Notes: generated from the sequence alone by a model not told the origin. Positions 123 through 45,447 are shown, counted from the first letter of the stretch. The stretch: DNA of 64,000 bases from Actinomycetes bacterium (GCA_021846515.1 JAJZWU010000010.1:1-64000), one strand, 5' to 3'. Program-made: numbers and translations.

Positions 123-548
123 AATGTTATCCACTTTAGTTGCAATGCAACATATATCATATTGCAAACTATTGCCTGCTGTAAGTAGCACTATCGGGAA
201 TGCCCGGGCAGTTGAGCTACCTACAGCCTGTAAGCATACCAAGCAATACCGCCTACCGGGGTAGTTGACGACATAATTTATTTTAGCACATTCCTGTGTG
301 GTATCCCGTCAAGGTTGCCAATTCTTAAGGCTGCCAATTCATATTTATCCAGGAGCGATCTTTCATCGTTATGTCCAACATTATTTATTTTATACCTACC
401 GAGAACGAAGCCTGAGGAATATGTTCGGCATTTTGTTCACTATGCCGATAACAATAATAATGAGCTATAACAGATTATATAATGTCCGGCTATGTAGTCG
501 GCCAGCCATGTTCCCGGCATTGAATTTTAGCTGTGCAGGTTTTGGAAG
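123..548. other. Intergenic stretch without recognised gene
   Basis: About 425 bases between the tRNA and the LRV-repeat gene. The open frames here are short, have no recognisable protein signature and no convincing ribosome site. A TATAAT-like hexamer sits near 478-483 but no matching -35 element was seen. I find nothing else to call. Confidence 0.5.
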
Positions 549-1790
549 GTGTCAAAGTACGGTGAGTGCATGAGTACCCGTATGGCTGCTGGGATAAACC
601 ATGAATATGATCGATTGGATATTCTTATAAGGATGTCTGTGGACAGGGATCCAAGACAGCGAGCAAGAGCAGCCTCGCATAACGATGCCACTCCGTGTAT
701 GCTGGCAATTCTGGCTACTGATAAAGTCGCTAGTGTACGTAGATCAGTTGGAGCCAATCCCGTCGCTCCAGAATTTGTATTGGATCATCTGTCCAGGGAT
801 AGCGATGCACCGACGAGGATCGCGGTGGTGAGTAATACAAACACAGGTAGGTCTGCATTGTTGCGGCTGTCTGAAGATGCTGATCCCCATGTGAGAGCAG
901 GGGTGGCGTCAAATTCTAATGTTATGGAAAGCGTGTTAATTAAGTTAGCCAGAGACAAGGACCCAATAGTCCGTATGGCGGCAGCCGAGAATGGTTTACT
1001 TCCTTACAGTGTTTTGCAGGACATGGTTAAAGATGTTTCTGGTCTGGTCAGGTCGGCCATCGCTGCCAGCCAGCGCATTGATAGTACCACTATAGGCTTT
1101 ATGACTGGAGATGAGAGTGTCAAGGTACGCCAATCCGTAGCGAGTAATCCGAATATTCTAGAAGGTGATCTGAAGAAGTTGGCATATGATGATTCAGAGT
1201 TGGTACGCCGTTCTGTGGCATCGAATCCATCTGCAGGAATCGATATTCTGAAAGAACTTGCCGGTGACCCTGATGTCTCTGTCAGAATTGCTGTTTCGAG
1301 GAATCCGTCTGCTACAGAAAAAATAATCAAGATCGTGGCAAATTATCAGGCTGGTAGGTACAGCGTACACATAGCATCAAGTCCAGCGACTGAGCCAGAT
1401 ATCCTGTTTGGCTTGGCATCTGTTACCAATTGGGTGATACGCCAGGCTATTGCGCTAAATAGAGCGACGCCAAAAAAAGCATTGGAGCTGCTTGCCTATG
1501 ATGCTGATTGGAGGGTCCGTAGAGGAGTAGCGCAGAATAGGTCGGCGCCTCCTGATGCATTGAGGGTGCTCGCTCACGACCCGTATGATGAGATAAAGCA
1601 GGCGGTGGCAGACAATCCTTCCAGTCCCAATGATGCAGTGCAAGAGGCGCTTAAGGGCAAGGGGGCTGGTAGGCATGAATTGGCCTCATCCAAGCGACCA
1701 AATAGGAGCGATGGAGGAAGAACCACCGGCGGTAGTAGAGCTTCACTTGCAAGTGCAGGCAGGGCAGTACTAAGGCTGATAAAAGGTTGA
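549..1790 (+). CDS. LRV/HEAT-like repeat protein
   Basis: A 413-residue protein made almost entirely of about 12-13 tandem helical repeats of roughly 23-26 residues. The pattern is VR-x2-V-A-x-N-P then a hydrophobic helix ending in LA-x-D; residues such as VRRSVASNPS recur. This matches the leucine-rich repeat variant (LRV) type of alpha-solenoid, related to HEAT repeats, which usually serves as a protein-binding scaffold. The N-terminal Fe-S cysteine cluster of some LRV proteins is absent. There is no signal peptide or membrane segment, so it is probably cytoplasmic. The last 40 residues are basic and Ser/Gly-rich. The start could be the GTG at 549 or the ATG at 570, which has GGTGAG just upstream. 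The partner cannot be told from context. Confidence 0.8.
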   Translation: MSKYGECMSTRMAAGINHEYDRLDILIRMSVDRDPRQRARAASHNDATPCMLAILATDKVASVRRSVGANPVAPEFVLDHLSRDSDAPTRIAVVSNTNTGRSALLRLSEDADPHVRAGVASNSNVMESVLIKLARDKDPIVRMAAAENGLLPYSVLQDMVKDVSGLVRSAIAASQRIDSTTIGFMTGDESVKVRQSVASNPNILEGDLKKLAYDDSELVRRSVASNPSAGIDILKELAGDPDVSVRIAVSRNPSATEKIIKIVANYQAGRYSVHIASSPATEPDILFGLASVTNWVIRQAIALNRATPKKALELLAYDADWRVRRGVAQNRSAPPDALRVLAHDPYDEIKQAVADNPSSPNDAVQEALKGKGAGRHELASSKRPNRSDGGRTTGGSRASLASAGRAVLRLIKG

Positions 1791-22142: not shown

Positions 22143-22233
22143 GGCAGATTGCAACGTCGTAGATCGTGATTTGTATGGATATTGCAACCAGTGGTTGGAT
22201 GAAGTATGTATTTAAGCATTATGATTGGATGAT

Positions 22234-23589
22234 ATGGGTGAACGGATCAAATACTCCACCAAAGAGGCACCGAGCCACTTGCCTGGCGTGGAGTCGCTGC
22301 CGGTAGGGTTGGTGCATAGATTATTTGCTGCACTGGGGCGTATCGGTAGAGACGGCTTTCTGGTAATGCTTGGCGCCATCTGGACCCTGGATGGACTACT
22401 CCAGCTGCAGCCATATATGTACGAGAAGGGCTCCAATGGTTTATTCGGTCCAGTAGCTCTTGAAACGATGGGTCGTCCTAATGCTCTAAACGACTTTTTG
22501 GCCTTTATGATTCGCCATATGGTGGCTCATGAAGCGATATCCAATAGCGCTATAGTGCTGGTTCAAGTAGCTATAGGTGTGCTTTTGATTTTGAGCTCTA
22601 TAAAACGGCGTTACGATATTGCTAGATTAACTCTTGTTGTATCGATAGCCTGGGCATTTATGGTGTGGGTTGTAGGAGAAGGAATTGGAGGCATGATTAT
22701 GCCCCAAGCATCAATGCTCACAGGAGCTCCGGGAGCGGCAATCATATATGTCTTGGCAGGATTATATCTCTGGCCGCCAAAAGATTTACTAAAATATTAT
22801 GTATCTGTTGATAGCGGCGAAGAAACAAGTGACAGCTCAAAAGAGCTGTCGGACGGCACAAACTGGGACAACTCTGATCAGCGTAACGATGGTGGGCAGG
22901 TATCTCAGCTTATGGACAAAAAAGCTGCATATCCTACTTATCCACTAGACAACAATGAGAAGGGGGCGGTCGCAGCACATGGTCTTCTTGGGAGCACCGC
23001 ATCTTATATAGCATGGGCCATCTTGTGGTGCGGATCCGCATTATTGGAACTTCAGTACGGTAACTTTGCGCCACATTCCATACCTACCCAGATAAGATAT
23101 GAGGCAAAGGGTGAGCCCCATTGGCTCTCTTTCTTGGATCTGCATATTGCCAGCATCTTGCACGGAGAGGGGACAGTGGTTGCCGGGACACTGCTTGTTG
23201 TCGAATTTGCTGTGGGGTGGTTGATCTTGCGGCCTGCTACTCGAAAGATTGCACTTATTTCCGGCATGGTGCTGTCTACAGCCTTCTGGGTGGTGGGACA
23301 GAATTTTGGGACGATATTTTCTGGACAGGCAACTGACCTCAATAGTGGCCCTCTTTTGGTTTTGCTGGCTCTGTTGCTTTGGCCCAGAAACATACGGCAG
23401 GCAAAGAGGCACTCCATATCTTCTGTCAGAGACGATGCCGCCTCAAGCAGTGGCAACTCAGGATCGGTACAAAATGATGCCGCCTCAAGCAGTGGCGATT
23501 CAGACTCAGGCCAGAGAGATGTTTCTTTGAGTAGCGGCAATACTGGCTCAGATCATAACAGGGATGACTCCGGTCTCATCCGTGTTTAA
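22234..23589 (+). CDS. Internally duplicated multi-pass membrane protein
   Basis: A 451-residue membrane protein formed by two similar halves of about four helices each. Half one (about 25-180) has GAIWTLDGLLQLQPYMY and WVVGEGIGGMIMPQASML..GAPGAAIIYVLAGLYLWP. Half two (about 250-390) has WAILWCGSALLELQYGN and WVVGQNFGTIFSGQATDL..GPLLVLLALLLWP. A hydrophilic loop of about 60 residues joins them and a repetitive Ser/Asp/Gly tail ends the protein. The layout recalls DoxX-like four-helix proteins, but I cannot assign a function. TATGAT ends 8 bases before the ATG at 22234 and favours it over the TTG at 22225. The 3' end overlaps the convergent lipoprotein gene by 14 bases. Confidence 0.75.
   Translation: MGERIKYSTKEAPSHLPGVESLPVGLVHRLFAALGRIGRDGFLVMLGAIWTLDGLLQLQPYMYEKGSNGLFGPVALETMGRPNALNDFLAFMIRHMVAHEAISNSAIVLVQVAIGVLLILSSIKRRYDIARLTLVVSIAWAFMVWVVGEGIGGMIMPQASMLTGAPGAAIIYVLAGLYLWPPKDLLKYYVSVDSGEETSDSSKELSDGTNWDNSDQRNDGGQVSQLMDKKAAYPTYPLDNNEKGAVAAHGLLGSTASYIAWAILWCGSALLELQYGNFAPHSIPTQIRYEAKGEPHWLSFLDLHIASILHGEGTVVAGTLLVVEFAVGWLILRPATRKIALISGMVLSTAFWVVGQNFGTIFSGQATDLNSGPLLVLLALLLWPRNIRQAKRHSISSVRDDAASSSGNSGSVQNDAASSSGDSDSGQRDVSLSSGNTGSDHNRDDSGLIRV
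23431..23556 (+). repeat. Three tandem 42-bp units in the C-terminal tail
   Basis: Units at 23431-23472, 23473-23514 and 23515-23556 encode 14-residue repeats of the pattern xDAASSSGxSxSxx. The first two are near identical and the third has diverged. This is a coding minisatellite in the hydrophilic tail. Confidence 0.85.
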
Positions 23590-24082
23590 TCTCATGTCCG
23601 TCTGCAGATAGCGCGTACCAGACCCCCCCAAATTGCTCCAGTGCCTCACCGTGGGTCTCTCCAGGTGATGAGTCCACGGTGTATGTATAGAGAGGGTGCC
23701 CTCCATAAGTCAACTGGTAATGCCCGCCGGGTCTTCGTATCTTTCCAACCAGGGAGGGGTCGACGCCTGTTCCAAGGTGTGGCTTTCCACTTGTTTCCAG
23801 TGGTGGCCATAGGGCGGTGCAGGCTCCCCGTGGGCAATTGCTTTTGTGGGGGGTATCCAAACTAAAGGCATACAGTGTATGTCCTGAACTGTTTACAAGT
23901 ATTGTTCCAATTGATGTATGTCGCAGTCCAATAGTTGGCGCAGACGCGGATAGGGTAGCAGGTGTGCTACTTGAGCATGCTGTGAGCCCAATCGCTGCCA
24001 GTATGCAGAGCGGTAAAAATAATAGGCTCCGTTGCATAAAACTCAGTGGTGATTGGCGGTATTGATGTAACACTCTGTTCAA
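23576..24082 (-). CDS. Lipoprotein with secreted-repeat domain (COG4315-like)
   Basis: A 168-residue lipoprotein. After a basic n-region and a hydrophobic core comes the lipobox LTAC, so the mature protein starts at a lipidated Cys. The rest holds two repeats of the secreted-repeat family (PF03640-like): GHTLYAFSLDT..SNCPRGACTALWPPL and GHPLYTYTVDSSPGETHGE, ending in WYALSADG. The family's function is not established. The start is the TTG at 24082, because AGGAGG lies 9 bases upstream inside the previous gene and the TTG overlaps that gene's stop as TTGA. MQRS at 24037 is an alternative without a ribosome site. Confidence 0.85.
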   Translation of the reverse strand: MNRVLHQYRQSPLSFMQRSLLFLPLCILAAIGLTACSSSTPATLSASAPTIGLRHTSIGTILVNSSGHTLYAFSLDTPHKSNCPRGACTALWPPLETSGKPHLGTGVDPSLVGKIRRPGGHYQLTYGGHPLYTYTVDSSPGETHGEALEQFGGVWYALSADGHEIKHG

Positions 24083-37898: not shown

Positions 37899-39542
37899 AT
37901 GACAAGCAGCAGTGACAATAATAGCAACGGGAAGGTATCCGCAGGCGTGTCGGAATCGGCCGGTAGGGATCAGGGGAAGGGAAATCCGGAAGAGCATCTG
38001 GTAATATTTGATACCACACTTCGCGACGGAGAACAGGCTCCGGGAATATCGCTTGACCCGCAGGAGAAACTTGAGATAGCCGAGCAGCTTGCACGTTTGG
38101 GAGTAGATTATATTGAAGCAGGATTTCCCGTTTCCAGCCAGGGTGATTTTGACTCCGTTCAGGCAATTGCCCGGTCGATTCATGGACCGGTAATATGCGG
38201 CCTTTCACGTACCCATGTCTCAGATGTGGATCGCTGCTACGATGCATTGAAAGATGCAGACAGGGCGAGGATCCATGTATTTATTTCCACCAGTCCCGAG
38301 CATATGGAGTACATGCTTAAGATGAGCCCTGAACAGGTCATGAGAGAGGTCCACACTGGGGTGGCGAGGGCGAGGGAACATTTGGAAGACGTAGAGTTCA
38401 GTCCGCAGGACGCTACCAGGACATCGATGGACTTTCTACTTGAAGTGCTGAATGAGGCAGTTTCGCAGGGCGCCACAACTCTGAATATTCCCGATACGGT
38501 GGGATATGGTATTCCGTGGGATTTCGGGCACTTGATAACTCGTATCCGTAAAGAAGTCCCAGGTGACTACATAATTTCCACCCATTGCCACAATGATCTC
38601 GGTCTGGCCACCGCCAATTCAATTGCCGGAGTGCAGGCTGGTGCCAGGCAGGTAGAGGTCTGTATAAATGGCATAGGTGAGCGTGCCGGCAACGCGGCAC
38701 TTGAGGAAGTAGTCATGGCCGTGAATATCAGAGGTGATCAGTTTCCTGCTGTTCGTACGGGAATAAATACCGAGGAACTGGCGAGGACGTCAAGGCTTGT
38801 TTCAAGACTCACCGGTTACCCTGTGCAGTACAACAAGGCAGTGGTTGGCAGGAATGCATTTGCACATGAAGCTGGGATACACCAGCATGGGGTACTTTCA
38901 GATAGGCGTACCTATGAGATTATCGATGCCGCTACAGTAGGGCAGCAGGGCAGCCAGATAGTGCTCGGAAAGCATTCAGGTCGCCATGCCTTTATAGACT
39001 CGCTCGAAAAAATGGGCATTCACGCTCACGGTGATGTAATCAATCAGGCGTTCAGAAGATTCAAGGATCTGGCAGACCGGAAGGTTGAGATTACCGAGGC
39101 GGATCTTGAAGCAATTGTTGCAGAGGAGATTGGCATGGATGTGGTAGAAGGGTATGTCCTTGAAAGCCTGGAGGTGTCCGGTGGGACTCAGGGCGCACCC
39201 AAAGCGAAAGTGGTAGTAAGTAGATCAGGCACCAGCAAGGAGGCTACCTCTGAGGGCAATGGAATGATAGACGCTGCTTGTAGGGCAATAGAGGCAGCTA
39301 CGTCCACCGGCGCCGAATTGGCAGGCTTCAGCGTGTCGTCGGTTACCGGAGGTATTGACGCTCTGGGAGATGTGGTGATACAGCTGAAGTCGGATGGTAT
39401 AAAGGTGTCAGGCAAGGGCGTGTCTACTGATGTAGTAGAGGCATCTGCAAGGGCTTATCTTGCTGCTGTAAATCGTCTGGTTCGTGCTAAGAGCCGCAGC
39501 ACTCATGATCATTCTGTATTGGAGGCAGACACCGGACCATAG
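37899..39542 (+). CDS. leuA: 2-isopropylmalate synthase
   Basis: A 547-residue enzyme condensing acetyl-CoA with 2-ketoisovalerate, the first committed step of leucine synthesis. The catalytic TIM barrel has DTTLRDGEQAPG, EAGFPVSSQGDF, the metal ligands in HCHNDLGLA and NGIGERAGNAALEE. After the linker (YNKAVVGRNAFAHEAGIHQHG) a C-terminal LeuA regulatory domain follows (LESLEVSGG.. to AYLAAVNRL), the site of leucine feedback inhibition in the family. The first 30 residues are a polar extension. The ribosome site AAAGGAG is about 7 bases before the ATG. Expression is probably controlled by the leader-peptide attenuator upstream. Confidence 0.97.
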   Translation: MTSSSDNNSNGKVSAGVSESAGRDQGKGNPEEHLVIFDTTLRDGEQAPGISLDPQEKLEIAEQLARLGVDYIEAGFPVSSQGDFDSVQAIARSIHGPVICGLSRTHVSDVDRCYDALKDADRARIHVFISTSPEHMEYMLKMSPEQVMREVHTGVARAREHLEDVEFSPQDATRTSMDFLLEVLNEAVSQGATTLNIPDTVGYGIPWDFGHLITRIRKEVPGDYIISTHCHNDLGLATANSIAGVQAGARQVEVCINGIGERAGNAALEEVVMAVNIRGDQFPAVRTGINTEELARTSRLVSRLTGYPVQYNKAVVGRNAFAHEAGIHQHGVLSDRRTYEIIDAATVGQQGSQIVLGKHSGRHAFIDSLEKMGIHAHGDVINQAFRRFKDLADRKVEITEADLEAIVAEEIGMDVVEGYVLESLEVSGGTQGAPKAKVVVSRSGTSKEATSEGNGMIDAACRAIEAATSTGAELAGFSVSSVTGGIDALGDVVIQLKSDGIKVSGKGVSTDVVEASARAYLAAVNRLVRAKSRSTHDHSVLEADTGP

Positions 39543-39578: not shown

Positions 39579-40448
39579 TTAAGAGGTTACTACTACCTCA
39601 CCCATCATGTAGCCCAGATGGTGCATACCCCAGCCGCATGGCATGATGCAGTGCCAGTAGTAGATGCCGGGCTTTGGGGCAATGAATTGGAAGGTGGTCG
39701 CACGTGGATGTGCATGCGCTCCCGGGTGAATTGTTACATTCAGATGGAGCGGGGTAGAGGTGAACGAATGTGCATCGGTACTGAAGTTGGTTACCGTGAC
39801 ATCTACATGCTCTCTGGACTTTACAGAGAATATTGCCGGTACGTAGGCATCCTGTAGCACGCCGCCTCCTGGCTTTGGCTTGCCATATAGCGGTGGGGGA
39901 TTGATGTCCAGCATCACCTGCGCAATACCATCATGGGCTCTGACAGCCTCCGGAGGAGTGGACTTCATGTCGGAATTGCCGAGAAGGTACTGACTACTGA
40001 TCAAGCCTACTGCAGCGATAGTAACTGCCATCATGACCAGTATAGCAATCTTAGATCCTTGTTTTGCTGCGATCCTGCCTATGCCGCCAGCCGACTCCGT
40101 ATATGCTTTAGCGACAATGGGGTCAGTATGTCCAGTGGATTCATCTGTGTATGTAGCCAGATGATGCGAGACAGTCTCCCCATGTGCATTGGAATGGGTA
40201 TCGAATGCAGCCAACTCATTTTCGAGGCCGGATAGGCCGGAGAACTGTCCTGCCATCTCCCAGTCGAGCCCTGCCTCTTTGGCGCTCCAAGCCTCGTCGG
40301 GATATAAGCCTGCTGCAGCCCAATATTTTGCTTCCCATGAGCGGAACCCTGCAGCACGCCAACGTGTGGCAGTATGTAAGTCGAAGCCGTTTGCTGCCCA
40401 ACCTTCTGCGTGGTAGCGCCAGTTTGAGAGTGTACCCGGCTCCATCAT
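39579..40448 (-). CDS. Membrane-anchored CuA-like cupredoxin with N-terminal helical repeats
   Basis: A 289-residue protein with three parts. Residues 10-70 hold three to four copies of a short helical unit (W-x-AAGF-x3-EA) that should lie in the cytoplasm. Residues 133-156 form one transmembrane helix. Residues 170-289 form an exported cupredoxin with possible copper ligands H227, C267, C271, H276 or H277, and M281 or M282, in HCIMPCGWGMHHLGYMM. The C-x3-C spacing is that of CuA sites in cytochrome oxidase subunit II, but the His and Met lie further away than usual. It is the last gene of the Fe-S/NrfD cluster and probably takes or gives electrons outside the membrane. It converges with leuA, 36 bases apart. 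Confidence 0.75.
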   Translation of the reverse strand: MMEPGTLSNWRYHAEGWAANGFDLHTATRWRAAGFRSWEAKYWAAAGLYPDEAWSAKEAGLDWEMAGQFSGLSGLENELAAFDTHSNAHGETVSHHLATYTDESTGHTDPIVAKAYTESAGGIGRIAAKQGSKIAILVMMAVTIAAVGLISSQYLLGNSDMKSTPPEAVRAHDGIAQVMLDINPPPLYGKPKPGGGVLQDAYVPAIFSVKSREHVDVTVTNFSTDAHSFTSTPLHLNVTIHPGAHAHPRATTFQFIAPKPGIYYWHCIMPCGWGMHHLGYMMGEVVVTS

Positions 40449-40529
40449 CCTATCCGCCCAGCTTCAATTGTTGCATGCCCGCGACACAACTACAGTGTGT
40501 CAACATTCTTAATCTGTAGGAATTGATGG

Positions 40530-40745
40530 TTAGCGTACCAGCGTTTGCAAAGCATAGGCAATACCCGCGATCACTGCAACGGATACTCCCAGCTCGATCA
40601 GTGTAGTCACTACAGTGATAATCGTAATAAGAGCCGTCCTTACGGCTGGGGTAGGGGGGATTACAATCTCCTCTGCACCTTTCACGTCTACACTGCCGGT
40701 AGACTCTTCCTCGGCTATTTGATACCGTGTCTCTGTTGTCGTCAT
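40530..40745 (-). CDS. Small single-helix membrane protein of redox cluster
   Basis: A 71-residue protein with a polar N-terminal 35 residues and one long hydrophobic helix (about 38-68). The ribosome site AAGGAGGT is 6 bases before the ATG. It sits between the Ig-like membrane protein and the cupredoxin on the same strand, so it may be a small accessory subunit of that membrane complex. No family recognised. Confidence 0.65.
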   Translation of the reverse strand: MTTTETRYQIAEEESTGSVDVKGAEEIVIPPTPAVRTALITIITVVTTLIELGVSVAVIAGIAYALQTLVR

Positions 40746-40848
40746 TTATGTACCTCCTTGATACTGTTTATTGTTGCCAAATTCTTATTCGTTGTAAACA
40801 TCTCACTTGTGGATACCCGCCTGTCCCTAATCCAATTTCCTGCCTTGA

Positions 40849-41487
40849 TCATCGTGCATACCTGTGGCTGGTACGTTTGAATATCAAATTAACCCTAACG
40901 GCACTACCGATAAGCATCAGCCATAATATTGCCAAGATTCCCAACAATATCCCACCTACCCAGCGTCCCAGCATACCGTCTGGTCGTTTGGATTGTAATG
41001 TTCCCTTGAAGGGGAAAGAGGCCGAACCGGCAGTATAGGTAGTGCTAGCGGTTGCAAGAGTATTTCCGGATGCGTCGTTTATCTGTGCGGTAAGGGATTG
41101 AGCGCCCTTCCATGTTGGTGAATAAGTAACGGTGGCTACTCCGCTGGCATCCGTCTTAGCTGTCCCAACCAGCAGCAGTGGTGCCTTGCCGCCAAACTGG
41201 CCTGCAAATTGCGAAGCAGCCAGGTAGAAGTCCACCGTCATGCCCGTCGTATTGCCCGTCCTTCCGGTCGCGCTTACCTGCGCGGTCAGCGTTACCTGCT
41301 TCGGATTGGATGGCACCTGAGCGGCGTTAAGACTTATTGAGTAGTTGCTGACTGACTGTGCCCCAAACGCGACAGATGTGTCAATGAAAGCCAACAGTAT
41401 GCCGACTATCATGGCGACAGCAGTAAGTGCCACTCGGCTCCGTCCCGTGTGGCATTGCCGATAGCGTTGTAAGTTAGTAGCGAACAT
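40849..41487 (-). CDS. Ig-like domain membrane protein
   Basis: A 212-residue exported protein. A signal or anchor helix (about 20-42) is followed by a beta-rich region with the pattern of bacterial Ig-like domains (VTLTAQVSATGRTGNTTGMTVDFYL.., GVATVTYSPTWKGAQSLTAQI) and a C-terminal transmembrane helix (about 178-200) with a basic tail. Its ATG lies inside the last codons of the NrfD gene, a 14-base overlap that implies translational coupling. It is presumably a structural or docking subunit on the outer face of the complex. Function unknown. Confidence 0.7.
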   Translation of the reverse strand: MFATNLQRYRQCHTGRSRVALTAVAMIVGILLAFIDTSVAFGAQSVSNYSISLNAAQVPSNPKQVTLTAQVSATGRTGNTTGMTVDFYLAASQFAGQFGGKAPLLLVGTAKTDASGVATVTYSPTWKGAQSLTAQINDASGNTLATASTTYTAGSASFPFKGTLQSKRPDGMLGRWVGGILLGILAILWLMLIGSAVRVNLIFKRTSHRYAR

Positions 41488-43018
41488 TCTGTCTTACCTG
41501 CCTTTCAGTCATCTTGGGGATTCTTTTGATTTGCCGGTTATCCGAGTAGTAGTTCTTGTCCGGGCTGCTCAGATCTTCTTCAAGGCCACCATCCTCTGCT
41601 GCCATTTCTTCCATCTCTGCGACCGGCAGGATTGGCACGAATTTGAAGAGTACCAGCATTAGCAGTGGTATCGCCGCAGTGGCAGCCAGGGTGATGAAAA
41701 TTGGGATCCAGGTGAAGTGATATGTTCCCCATGTGGCGTTCGCTGTATTTAATGGAGACTTTATCAATGGTTCGGTGGCTGGAGGTATGACTATTACAAG
41801 TCTTTTTACCCACATAGCCAGCAATACGATTACCGAGGCCGTTACAATGCCTTTCGTATTGCGCAGGCGTTTGAAGGCAAGCACGGCGAGAGGCAGTATG
41901 CCCGCGCCGACTACGAAGAACCAGAACGGTATCCAGTAGCGCCCCAGTATGGTCTGATACACCCAACTGGCATTTCCAATCGTGCCAGAATAACCGTCTA
42001 CGAGGTATTCCGTGAACGTAAGGTATAGGTAAGCTGCACCAAGGGCTACCAAAATAAACCCCAATCTAACGAAGTGCTTTCCGGTGATGTAACGCTCCAA
42101 GCCATAACCACGGCGAAATGCTGCAGCCATTACTATCACGAGAGCTACCCCGGTATAGAGGGCACCCACCACGAACAGTACCGGAAAGATAGTCTCCAGG
42201 TATCCTGCCCGGCTGGATGATGAAAAAGCAAAGCTCAGCACTGAATGTACAGAGACGGCCATAGGTATGATCATGATCGATATAAGACCAAGTGCACCAT
42301 GCAGTGTTCGCCTCTGTGCGATACTGCCAACCCAATTGTTCCCCACGATAGAGTAGAGCTTCTTGCATATGCGGGTTTTAATGTTGTCAGGTCCATTTGA
42401 GAGTCTTTGCAGGGTGATCTTCAGATCAGGGATCAGAGGCAGGTAGAAAAATACCATTGTTGCCAGCAGGTATGTGCTTACAGCAAAAAAGTCCCACAGG
42501 ATTGGTGAGGATAGATTCCAGTATGGCGGCCAGACCAGCTCCCATATTCTCGGGGATTCTCCGAGATGTGGGATTATGAACATCATCCCGATTGGTAGCG
42601 TAACCAGTGCTGTAGCTTCGGCTATACGGGTAAGCGGGGCACGCCAGTGAGCCTTTGTAAGGCGCAGTACCGCGGATACTACCGCACCACCGTAGGTAAC
42701 ACCGATAAATGCAACCAGGTCGGCTTCGTAGATTGCCCAGAAGGCCTGATTATTGTAGCCTGCCGACCCCAACCCATCGCGTAGCTGCATGATCCATGCA
42801 AAGATGCCTGCTATCACTACCACAGATAGAGTAATCGTTGCCGTCCACCACCATTTGCCGGTTTGGAGCACCGGGCGCATCGCAGCTTCTCGTATGTCTT
42901 CACGCGCCGGTACGGGATCTACCCCGTCGTAGGCTATGCTCATTGCCTCCTCTGCTCTGCTGTCGTCTATTGTTGTACTTGCAGTCGTATCCACTTTTTC
43001 AACCTGCTTCCTCGTCAT
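41474..43018 (-). CDS. NrfD/PsrC-type quinone-interacting membrane subunit
   Basis: A 514-residue integral membrane protein of the NrfD/PsrC family with about ten hydrophobic helices. Family-like features are the long first helix, GVTYGGAVVSAVLRLTKAHWRAPLTRIAEA, and the bilobal arrangement of the remaining helices; HAL-rich WTAT and WIPFWFFVVGAGILPL segments lie in the second half. In DMSO, polysulfide and alternative complex III systems such subunits exchange electrons with menaquinone next to an Fe-S subunit. The ATG lies 20 bases inside the upstream Fe-S gene. No catalytic molybdenum subunit accompanies it. A hydrophilic 45-residue extension precedes helix 1. Confidence 0.88.
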   Translation of the reverse strand: MTRKQVEKVDTTASTTIDDSRAEEAMSIAYDGVDPVPAREDIREAAMRPVLQTGKWWWTATITLSVVVIAGIFAWIMQLRDGLGSAGYNNQAFWAIYEADLVAFIGVTYGGAVVSAVLRLTKAHWRAPLTRIAEATALVTLPIGMMFIIPHLGESPRIWELVWPPYWNLSSPILWDFFAVSTYLLATMVFFYLPLIPDLKITLQRLSNGPDNIKTRICKKLYSIVGNNWVGSIAQRRTLHGALGLISIMIIPMAVSVHSVLSFAFSSSSRAGYLETIFPVLFVVGALYTGVALVIVMAAAFRRGYGLERYITGKHFVRLGFILVALGAAYLYLTFTEYLVDGYSGTIGNASWVYQTILGRYWIPFWFFVVGAGILPLAVLAFKRLRNTKGIVTASVIVLLAMWVKRLVIVIPPATEPLIKSPLNTANATWGTYHFTWIPIFITLAATAAIPLLMLVLFKFVPILPVAEMEEMAAEDGGLEEDLSSPDKNYYSDNRQIKRIPKMTERQVRQNVRY

Positions 43019-43952
43019 TGTCCAAATCCTGATCGTGGCCGAGTATGTAAAATACCCTTGGGTGAGTTCCGTAAGATTCCTTGAACTTTACGGCATCGTT
43101 ATTGGCCAGAAACGCAGACAGCTTGATGACCTGTCCACTTGCATTGACCGCTACGTCTGTCTCCAAGTCTCCCATGTATAGGGCATCCATGGGGCAGTTT
43201 CCGACACATTCCGGGATTTTCCCCATGGGCAGCATGGCTGCACAAAATATACACTTGCCTACGGTTCCTTCCACCTGAGGCACCGGCCACTGTGGTTCCT
43301 GCGGGAACGGCTGGCGAGGCGCCGACTTTGGTGGCCCCCAGTTAAAGTAACGTGCCTGGTAGGGGCAGGCATTCATGCAGATACGGGTGCCGATACAGCG
43401 GTCCTGTCTGACAAGTACCAAGCCTTCGTCGGTACGGAAATTTGCCTTTACCGGACAGACCGGCACACAAGGTGGATCCTCGCACATCATGCATGGCCTT
43501 GGCATGTAGTAGGTATTGCCTGAGGCGTTCTTCATTGTGAATACATCTATCCAGGTTTGGTCTTTGTGAAGATAATGAGCCGTCTGGCATGACATGGTAC
43601 AGACCTTGCAGCCGTTGCAGTAACGCAAATCTATGACCATGCACCATTGATGCTTCGCCTTCGCCGGTGCATCATCATCTGAGTGCACAGCTGTGCCGGT
43701 AGTAGCGGCCGCTTTGTGCTCGGTTAGTGCTTCCAGCACCCCACCTCCTGCAAGTGCTCCTGCTATGCCAACTATACCTGCTCTTTCCAGGAAGTGCCTC
43801 CTGCTGATGCCGCTATGGTTCTTGGTGCCATCTTTGTCAGGGGTGATATCCTGATCAGTTGCTACCCCCGGGAGTCCGATGTTGCCGGACCCCCGGTCGG
43901 TGCCAGTGCCTGCTCTGTCCGGCAGATGTACCTTTTGCCTGTTTGATGCCAT
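42999..43952 (-). CDS. Tat-exported four-cluster Fe-S protein (PsrB/ActB-like)
   Basis: A 317-residue ferredoxin-type electron-transfer subunit. A long 50-residue leader precedes the twin-arginine motif SRRHFLER and a hydrophobic segment, so the folded protein is exported by Tat. Four cysteine motifs follow: C112-C115-C118-C122, C154-C157-C162-C166, C186-T189-C192-C196 and C234-C237-C249-C253. The third has Thr in place of the second Cys (CIGTRIC), which predicts a [3Fe-4S] rather than a [4Fe-4S] cluster. It would relay electrons between the NrfD subunit and a partner. Ribosome site AAGGAG is 3 bases before the ATG. The gene follows the cupredoxin lipoprotein gene after 72 bases. Confidence 0.88.
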   Translation of the reverse strand: MASNRQKVHLPDRAGTGTDRGSGNIGLPGVATDQDITPDKDGTKNHSGISRRHFLERAGIVGIAGALAGGGVLEALTEHKAAATTGTAVHSDDDAPAKAKHQWCMVIDLRYCNGCKVCTMSCQTAHYLHKDQTWIDVFTMKNASGNTYYMPRPCMMCEDPPCVPVCPVKANFRTDEGLVLVRQDRCIGTRICMNACPYQARYFNWGPPKSAPRQPFPQEPQWPVPQVEGTVGKCIFCAAMLPMGKIPECVGNCPMDALYMGDLETDVAVNASGQVIKLSAFLANNDAVKFKESYGTHPRVFYILGHDQDLDNDEEAG

Positions 43953-44024
43953 TGTCTCCTTCTTCTTTCTTGGGTCTACTGCCGTGTATCTATTCCATGT
44001 GATCTGTGTTCAGCCATGCACTAC

Positions 44025-44651
44025 CTATTGGACGACCAGCGACCCCATCATGTAACCGGGGGTAACCATCGGTCCTCCCATTCCTGTAGAACCTGTCCCA
44101 CAGGGAGCCTCGCATTGCCAGGTATAGGTTCCTGCCTTGGTGGTCTTGAATGTAAAGGTGACTATTGTTGGAGTCCTGCCGCTGGCACCCGGTGTCGGGG
44201 CTGGGGGAATTGGAATGTTCAGTGACAGACCTGGAACGGTAAAGGTATGAGATATATTGGCAGCCGGTATGGATGTCACTGCGCTACCATTGACCGTCTC
44301 TGTTCCTCCCTGGACATTGGCGAAGAGCGAACCTGAGTTGAGCGGTGCAGTTCCATCGTCGTAGTTGTAGATAGTCAGTATTACTGTTGCATCTTTGGGC
44401 AGGGTAAGATCAGCGGGAGAAAACATCGGCCAACCTGAGTGTTTGATCATTGATCCGGTCAGAATGGTCATTGATTCGTGAACGGTTACCGGCTTTTGTG
44501 CCCCAGGTGCAGTCGAACTGCCGGAGTTGCTGGAGCATGCTGCACCCAGCAGAGCTACGCCTATCAGAAGCGTAGGGACGAGCAACTTGATACTGTGCAC
44601 CTTCTCCGTAACGACCATTGCTATGCTTCCTGGTATATGTAGTTTAGTCAT
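44025..44651 (-). CDS. Cupredoxin-like lipoprotein with CxxPCG motif
   Basis: A 208-residue lipoprotein. Signal peptide with lipobox LGAAC (C39) and a Ser/Gly linker. The mature domain has cupredoxin-type strands: NISHTF (H135), FTFKTTKAGTYTWQCEAPCG (C180, C184), then GMGGPMVTPGYMMG (M195, M201, M202). It shares the CxxPCG and GYMMG ending with the protein at 39579-40448, but no His follows the second Cys, so the copper site is incomplete or unusual. It is the first gene of the redox cluster, and a ribosome site AAGGAAG precedes the ATG. A role as extracytoplasmic electron carrier or assembly factor is inferred. Confidence 0.75.
   Translation of the reverse strand: MTKLHIPGSIAMVVTEKVHSIKLLVPTLLIGVALLGAACSSNSGSSTAPGAQKPVTVHESMTILTGSMIKHSGWPMFSPADLTLPKDATVILTIYNYDDGTAPLNSGSLFANVQGGTETVNGSAVTSIPAANISHTFTVPGLSLNIPIPPAPTPGASGRTPTIVTFTFKTTKAGTYTWQCEAPCGTGSTGMGGPMVTPGYMMGSLVVQ

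Positions 44652-45089: not shown

Positions 45090-45427
<338 letters not shown>

Positions 45428-45447
<20 letters not shown>

Follow-up and report, generated by a model that had tools for sequence, protein, structure and literature searches.

Through what route do electrons leave an iron-sulfur/NrfD-type quinone module when neither a haem nor a molybdenum subunit is encoded with it? The question is raised by a gene array in a 64,000-nucleotide stretch of DNA (hereafter the window; JAJZWU010000010.1:1-64000 of GCA_021846515.1) from an Actinomycetes bacterium, in which genes for two cupredoxins flank those for an Fe-S protein and an NrfD-type membrane subunit. QrcABCD, DsrMKJOP and PsrABC likewise contain an Fe-S plus NrfD-type quinone module, but they have haem c, DsrK or molybdopterin catalytic subunits of their own, of which this cluster has none.

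The gene array

The original prediction had read the region as a tight minus-strand array of six genes, and all six open reading frames were recovered, running from 44651 to 39579 (Table 1). The FeS and NrfD genes overlap by 20 nt and the NrfD and Ig genes by 14 nt, the remaining gaps being 72-103 nt. The NrfD assignment rests on a Pfam match with E 7e-24, while the FeS protein was matched by Fer4_11 (E 6e-16) and, below the cut-off, by a DsrO-like model (E 1.5e-46). CupA and CupB matched Cupredoxin_1 only below its cut-off, and the Ig label derives from sub-threshold matches (E 0.0025-0.01) to a gene that is itself conserved. The CxxPCG and GYMMG motifs that had been reported are present in both CupA and CupB. 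About ten hydrophobic segments are seen in NrfD, two in the Ig protein and one each in CupB and the small peptide, and the twin-arginine motif of the FeS protein is invariant among its aligned relatives. The W/AGF repeats of CupB form helical hairpins ahead of the transmembrane (TM) helix (residues 1-80; window 40448-40200, minus strand), with residues 20-60 modelled at a pLDDT of ~80, and are probably cytoplasmic. A scan for promoters and terminators gave results at background.

Table 1. Features of the array and of other parts of the window
Feature	Position	Strand	Remarks
CupA, secreted cupredoxin	44025-44651	-	208 aa; lipobox-like N-terminus LLGAAC; motif HTF...WQCEAPCGTGSTGMGGPM...GYMMG
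FeS, Tat-type Fe-S protein, ActB2/PsrB/DsrO-like	42999-43952	-	317 aa; RR motif; four cluster motifs
NrfD-type membrane subunit, closest to ActC of ACIII	41474-43018	-	514 aa; PF03916
Ig-like single-domain protein	40849-41487	-	212 aa; signal peptide and C-terminal helix after conserved RPDG motif
One-helix peptide	40530-40745	-	71 aa
CupB	39579-40448	-	289 aa; N-terminal W/AGF helical repeats, one TM helix, cupredoxin domain HSF...WHCIMPCGWGMHHLGYMMG
2-isopropylmalate synthase-like gene	ends at 39542	opposite to array
RNase P RNA (RF00010)	45095-45446	+	just upstream of the cluster, divergent
Cluster-4 homologue	22225-23589	+	two repeats, GEGFGG...TDxNSGPL
Small lipoprotein	23576-24082	-	GHTLYAF/GHPLYTY repeats; adjoins the cluster-4 homologue

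Relationship of the Fe-S/NrfD core to alternative complex III

Comparison of an NrfD profile with the PDB recovered ActC of four solved alternative complex III (ACIII) structures and, weakly, ActF; PsrC was not matched. The generic PsrBC/DmsBC/NarHI-type label of the original prediction is thereby replaced by a specifically ActC/ActB2-like core, although the FeS protein resembles ArrB and PsrB as well. The putative quinol site of R. marinus ActC comprises Trp82, Ile86, Phe89, Pro136, His139, Leu166, Asp169, Val250 and Asp253 (PMC5928083). Residues W94, E98, H151, D176 and S256 of the window NrfD correspond to W82, I86, H139, D169 and S245 of ActC. Across the cupredoxin-type sequences the equivalents of Trp82, His139, Asp169 and Ser245 are kept in 46/46, Asp253 is replaced by Ala in the same 46, and Ile86 by Glu in 37 of them.

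A second signature common to the two systems lies in the Fe-S protein, where one cluster motif of the window clade reads CIGTRICMNACP, with Thr in place of Cys; other relatives have CIGCR, and ActB carries the same Thr (CIGTRYCSNNCP). Of the ActB clusters, it is the [3Fe-4S] one that lies beside the quinol (PMC5928083). Given the Cys-to-Thr replacement, the FeS protein of the window clade is likewise predicted to hold a [3Fe-4S] cluster. Among loci in which both proteins are readable, 35 have both the FeS Thr and the NrfD Glu (ActC position 86), 30 have neither, and none has just one of them; as the changes fall within one clade of the tree, they may have arisen once or twice, not 35 times independently. 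In the basal cupredoxin-type loci the Fe-S protein has a normal four-Cys cluster and the Glu is absent. The pairing of a Thr at the Fe-S cluster with a Glu in the quinol pocket yields a prediction as to how the first electron step is tuned.

Despite these shared features, the cluster is not an ACIII by membership. Whereas ACIII has a second NrfD subunit, ActF, the window genome has a single NrfD match; the pentahaem ActA and monohaem ActE are lacking, with no Cytochrome_C7 match in the genome; ActB carries a fused Mo-pterin-like domain, B1, which the 317-aa FeS protein lacks, the only PF00384 protein of the genome being NuoG; and ActD has no recognised counterpart in the cluster. A copper protein as likely acceptor is a point in common with the ACIII of Chloroflexus and Roseiflexus, which uses auracyanin, but here the cupredoxins are encoded inside the cluster and differ in ligand set. 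With several defining features missing, the system is best classed as a variant of the NrfD/ACIII kind.

Search for missing subunits and the remaining respiratory chain

The absence of haem and molybdenum subunits from the cluster, as originally described, held on inspection, and the search was extended to the whole window genome, a 2.27 Mb draft that is 92% complete, so that absences apply to the families searched. A PsrA-like, ActA or ActE subunit encoded elsewhere was not found: the only PF00384 match reads as NuoG rather than a molybdopterin catalytic subunit, and the only clear c-type cytochrome, in searches with the Cytochrome_C7 and CBB3-type families, is QcrC (a CBB3-type c match). One further cytochrome c match was weak, below the cut-off and interrupted by an internal stop.

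QcrC, QcrA and QcrB are encoded together on one contig, and the genome also has NuoG and an aa3-type oxidase whose CuA motif is normal. Cytochrome b was matched in all 23 genomes checked, strongly in 16 of the 17 that carry the cluster, which led us to reject the idea of the cluster as sole complex III: with a bc1-type cytochrome b in the carriers it is not required in that capacity. Since a standard bc1/aa3 chain is present, the complex is an addition to it, that is, accessory to bc1/aa3. Most carriers also show a weak second cytochrome b match; at one locus (L008 883-3123, plus strand; genome contig C39) a second, divergent cytochrome b N-terminal protein of 363 aa is followed by a 383-aa membrane protein.

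Conservation of the gene neighborhood

To place the array among its relatives we used 38 loci from a contig scan, most with 50-85% NrfD identity, in which genes were called as open reading frames rather than taken from annotation; a weak short match, L047, was additional. The close relatives of the window genome are actinobacterial metagenome-assembled genomes (MAGs). These probably come from acid-mine sites, judging from the MAG sets and from the taxonomic order, which includes known acidophilic iron-cycling Acidimicrobiia. An FeS gene adjoins or lies near NrfD in 38/38 loci, either directly before it or with a gene for another membrane protein family, termed cluster 4, in between (L015, L022, L025 and L035), and the Ig gene, detected by single-sequence search in 35/38, comes after NrfD. 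Cupredoxin genes, one to four per locus, lie within 4.5 kb in 34/38; in three of the others (L016, L029, L032) the contig ends at or inside FeS, and in L036 the cupredoxin is ~6 kb off on the other strand. The core of the array is thus conserved in related genomes, and its order far exceeds chance. The original prediction had named two findings that would tell against it, a molybdenum or haem subunit co-conserved with the cluster and absence of the gene order from relatives, and neither was encountered.

Only L009-L011, the close relatives of the window, were found to encode the one-helix peptide. Genes for a sensor kinase and/or a LuxR-type response regulator accompany 25/38 loci, mostly divergently from the cluster, as expected for a regulated form of respiration. 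A reading of these adjacent genes as COX I/II was ruled out by Pfam, which identifies a PAS histidine kinase and a LuxR-type regulator.

Among 395 genomes drawn from the class, the close NrfD type was present in 17, all belonging to the same taxonomic order, and a phylum-wide draw found this type only in that order. CX3C cupredoxins are encoded in 17/17 of these genomes. Eight genomes were sampled that have the haem-type or TIG-type NrfD described below; seven of them had no cupredoxin and G090 had one weak match. Four relatives without NrfD (G014, G047, G055, G063) keep one or two weaker cupredoxin homologues.

Haem-type and TIG-type sister clusters

Other Acidimicrobiia possess clusters with homologous FeS and NrfD in which the place of the Ig gene is taken by one whose product combines a comparable Ig-like domain and helix with an additional helix and with CxxCH motifs, of which there are one or two (for example L058, L059, L063, L065, L066, L067, L076). 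The N-terminal part of this protein was matched weakly by the Ig profile (at some loci with 18-22 bits), and its homology to the Ig subunit is drawn from position and architecture along with these scores. In contrast to the cupredoxin type, such clusters have a cytochrome c output, and in the pocket of their NrfD H139 is replaced by D and the Glu is absent. No description of these FeS-NrfD-[Ig+TM+cytochrome c] clusters was found in the open-licence papers searched. The presence of cytochrome c on the Ig subunit suggests that copper and haem look like alternative outputs of one core, and the occurrence of both sister complexes within one bacterial class offers a comparison pair. The original statement that neither known type of system is represented here is therefore to be divided: molybdenum and haem subunits are indeed absent, but the same class includes sister complexes whose Ig subunit bears cytochrome c. 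Multihaem cytochromes are encoded near L059, L066 and L076; upstream of the cluster in L059 (4532-6781, plus strand) a part resembling cytochrome b6f subunit IV is joined to seven CxxCH motifs.

A third version (L056, L057) has secreted TIG/IPT-domain proteins, with neither a CxxCH output nor a CX3C cupredoxin, while L055 combines TIG proteins with cupredoxins. Maximum-likelihood tree inference unites the cupredoxin-type NrfDs in a single group (support 100/98; 47 rows, including L055 and L052, whose cupredoxin genes are on another contig), next to which stands the TIG type, with the haem type and ActC further out. Long branches meet in this tree and its root serves for drawing only, so the ancestral output cannot be read from it.

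The cupredoxins and their putative copper site

To examine potential ligands we aligned 86 domains picked by the CX3C motif, in which both Cys are hence invariant by selection. Also invariant are the His of H(T/S/A)(F/W), the Trp of W-x-C, the Pro of CxxPC, two Met and one Gly. Most of the domains lack the second His found in blue-copper and CuA sites, and a Met seven residues past the second Cys is confined to the CupA type and is not invariant. The family thus shares with CuA the CX3C Cys pair, by which its members were picked, in a cupredoxin fold, but not the two His and one Met at CuA spacing; nor does it have the Cys, two His and Met of a type 1 (blue) site, only one His being invariant. 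We had considered CupB as a NirK-type T1 site (C-x8-H-x4-M), and dropped this when a wider alignment showed that the His at NirK spacing is not family-wide.

By profile, the nearest solved relatives are the CuA domains of NosZ and COX II. The AlphaFold model of CupA (pLDDT 83) matches rusticyanin, ranked first, CuA domains and AcoP; that of CupB has a pLDDT of 60 as a whole and mostly 80-90 in the cupredoxin domain, which matches COX II CuA domains. The fold is common to all of these and the CX3C spacing is that of CuA, but the family differs from them in having no C-terminal His ligand and two conserved Met instead. Sequence and models make copper binding by CupA and CupB likely but, with the second His missing, less than certain, and the site would be of unusual make-up. 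A ligand set of one His, two Cys and two Met, if true, would be an unusual copper site. At L022, where several cupredoxins are encoded, one paralogue (461-1405, minus strand) reads CMAPSG, with Ser replacing the second Cys.

A candidate quinol:cupredoxin oxidoreductase and its alternatives

We consider it reasonably probable that the cluster encodes a membrane quinol oxidase in which the ActB2-ActC half of ACIII forms the core and copper proteins serve as electron output. Its products would form a complex, perhaps a proton-pumping one, in which quinol, assumed to be menaquinol, would be oxidised in an outer-side pocket of NrfD. The electrons would pass to the nearby Fe-S cluster, predicted to be [3Fe-4S], and through the Fe-S chain in the Tat-exported subunit to CupA and CupB; these, anchored by lipid or helix, would be held alongside, perhaps on the Ig-like subunit, and would feed a high-potential acceptor beyond the membrane, for which the aa3 oxidase and ferric iron are both plausible. 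The ActC-like NrfD with its retained quinol-site residues, the co-occurrence of Thr and Glu, the grouping of the cupredoxin-type NrfDs, the constant presence of cupredoxins in the carrier genomes, the CxxCH domain taking their place in related clusters and the kinase/regulator genes argue for this reading; the missing second His, the Asp253-to-Ala change, the four-Cys basal loci without Glu, the bc1-type cytochrome b of the carriers and the Ser of the L022 paralogue argue against it. The quinol:cupredoxin oxidoreductase first proposed from the window thus gains from the partial retention of ACIII-type quinol residues, while its electron flow and copper binding stay presumptive.

The claim that known systems have nothing of this kind was too strong, as the ACIII of Chloroflexus is already a menaquinol:auracyanin oxidoreductase using a copper protein as acceptor, according to references given in PMC9316378. 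What stands as new is that haem subunits are absent and that an ACIII-like cluster encodes cupredoxins as output genes of its own, and we found no paper describing the FeS/NrfD/Ig/cupredoxin combination in the open-licence literature. If this is true, the core with which the ACIII family oxidises quinol can deliver electrons to copper carriers instead of haem subunits.

Two alternatives would detach the cupredoxins from the core or supply it with another partner. An ordinary CISM enzyme of the Psr/Dms/Nar kind, whose Mo-bisPGD catalytic subunit is lacking from the cluster, might appear in this form if that subunit were missing from the assembly, and both the incompleteness of the genome and the ArrB- and PsrB-like aspect of FeS are in keeping with this. 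Yet NrfD is ActC-like and not PsrC-like, the sole PF00384 protein has its place as NuoG, and no molybdenum subunit was recognised beside the 38 loci in the neighbor clusters examined, all of which makes this explanation very improbable. The CX3C cupredoxins could instead be copper-delivery or thiol-redox proteins, akin to the Sco-like use of CX3C, that merely sit beside the NrfD complex. Without the second His they are not standard blue copper or CuA proteins, which suits such a role, as does the cluster-4 membrane protein found in 20/38 loci. We think it unlikely, however, for up to four cupredoxin genes per locus and their presence in every carrier genome, the haem c occupying their place in the sister clusters, and the closeness of sequence and fold to electron-transfer CuA domains speak otherwise, and the Fe-S/NrfD pair would be left with no acceptor.

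Other alternatives accept the copper output and concern its use. Anaerobic ferric iron respiration might be the main job, with soluble Fe(III) beyond the wall receiving the electrons of quinol by way of Fe-S and cupredoxins. Fe(III) reduction occurs in acidophilic Acidimicrobiia such as Ferrimicrobium, Acidithrix and Acidimicrobium (PMC8790237), and several cupredoxins per locus together with kinase/regulator genes fit an inducible path. The proposal is attractive because Ferrimicrobium acidiphilum is reported to have no c-type cytochrome with more than two haems, its mediators being called unknown (PMC8350767). However, such an NrfD is missing from G014, a 2.2 Mb single-contig genome with RuBisCO, probably of Acidimicrobium ferrooxidans, which is known to reduce Fe(III), so the cluster is not a general Fe(III) route, and we regard this as its main job with considerable doubt. 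Reverse flow, in which cupredoxins would bring electrons from Fe(II) to the complex and quinone would be reduced uphill at the expense of the proton gradient, appears quite unlikely. It would accord with the proposal that NrfD subunits are ion translocators (PMC8076601) and with rusticyanin as top fold match of CupA; on the other hand, the predicted [3Fe-4S] cluster favors quinol oxidation by analogy with ActB, and RuBisCO has no match in 15/17 carrier genomes, being clear only in G334 and weak in G303, which weakens an autotrophic uphill role and suggests that the demand for uphill transport is probably low.

Returning to the quinol:cupredoxin oxidoreductase, its most specific form would be a haem-free quinol oxidase of acidophilic actinobacteria without multihaem cytochromes, passing electrons from Fe-S to cupredoxins with a new His-Cys2-Met2 copper site and on to extracellular ferric iron or another high-potential acceptor; we advance this tentatively, as a whole that is more apt to fail than to hold. 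It would make the cluster a candidate link between the quinone pool and outside electron carriers in Gram-positive iron-cycling acidophiles that lack multihaem cytochromes, and could help explain respiration without such cytochromes in uncultured acid-mine actinobacteria.

Other genes associated with the clusters

Members of the cluster-4 membrane protein family that were tested had no Pfam or NCBIfam match. Besides the homologue elsewhere in the window (Table 1), the window genome has a second copy on contig C15. A radical SAM gene of the anaerobic sulfatase-maturase type lies downstream of the cluster in L012, L014 (5743-7218, minus strand) and L022, the L014 gene matching TIGR03942 above the cut-off.
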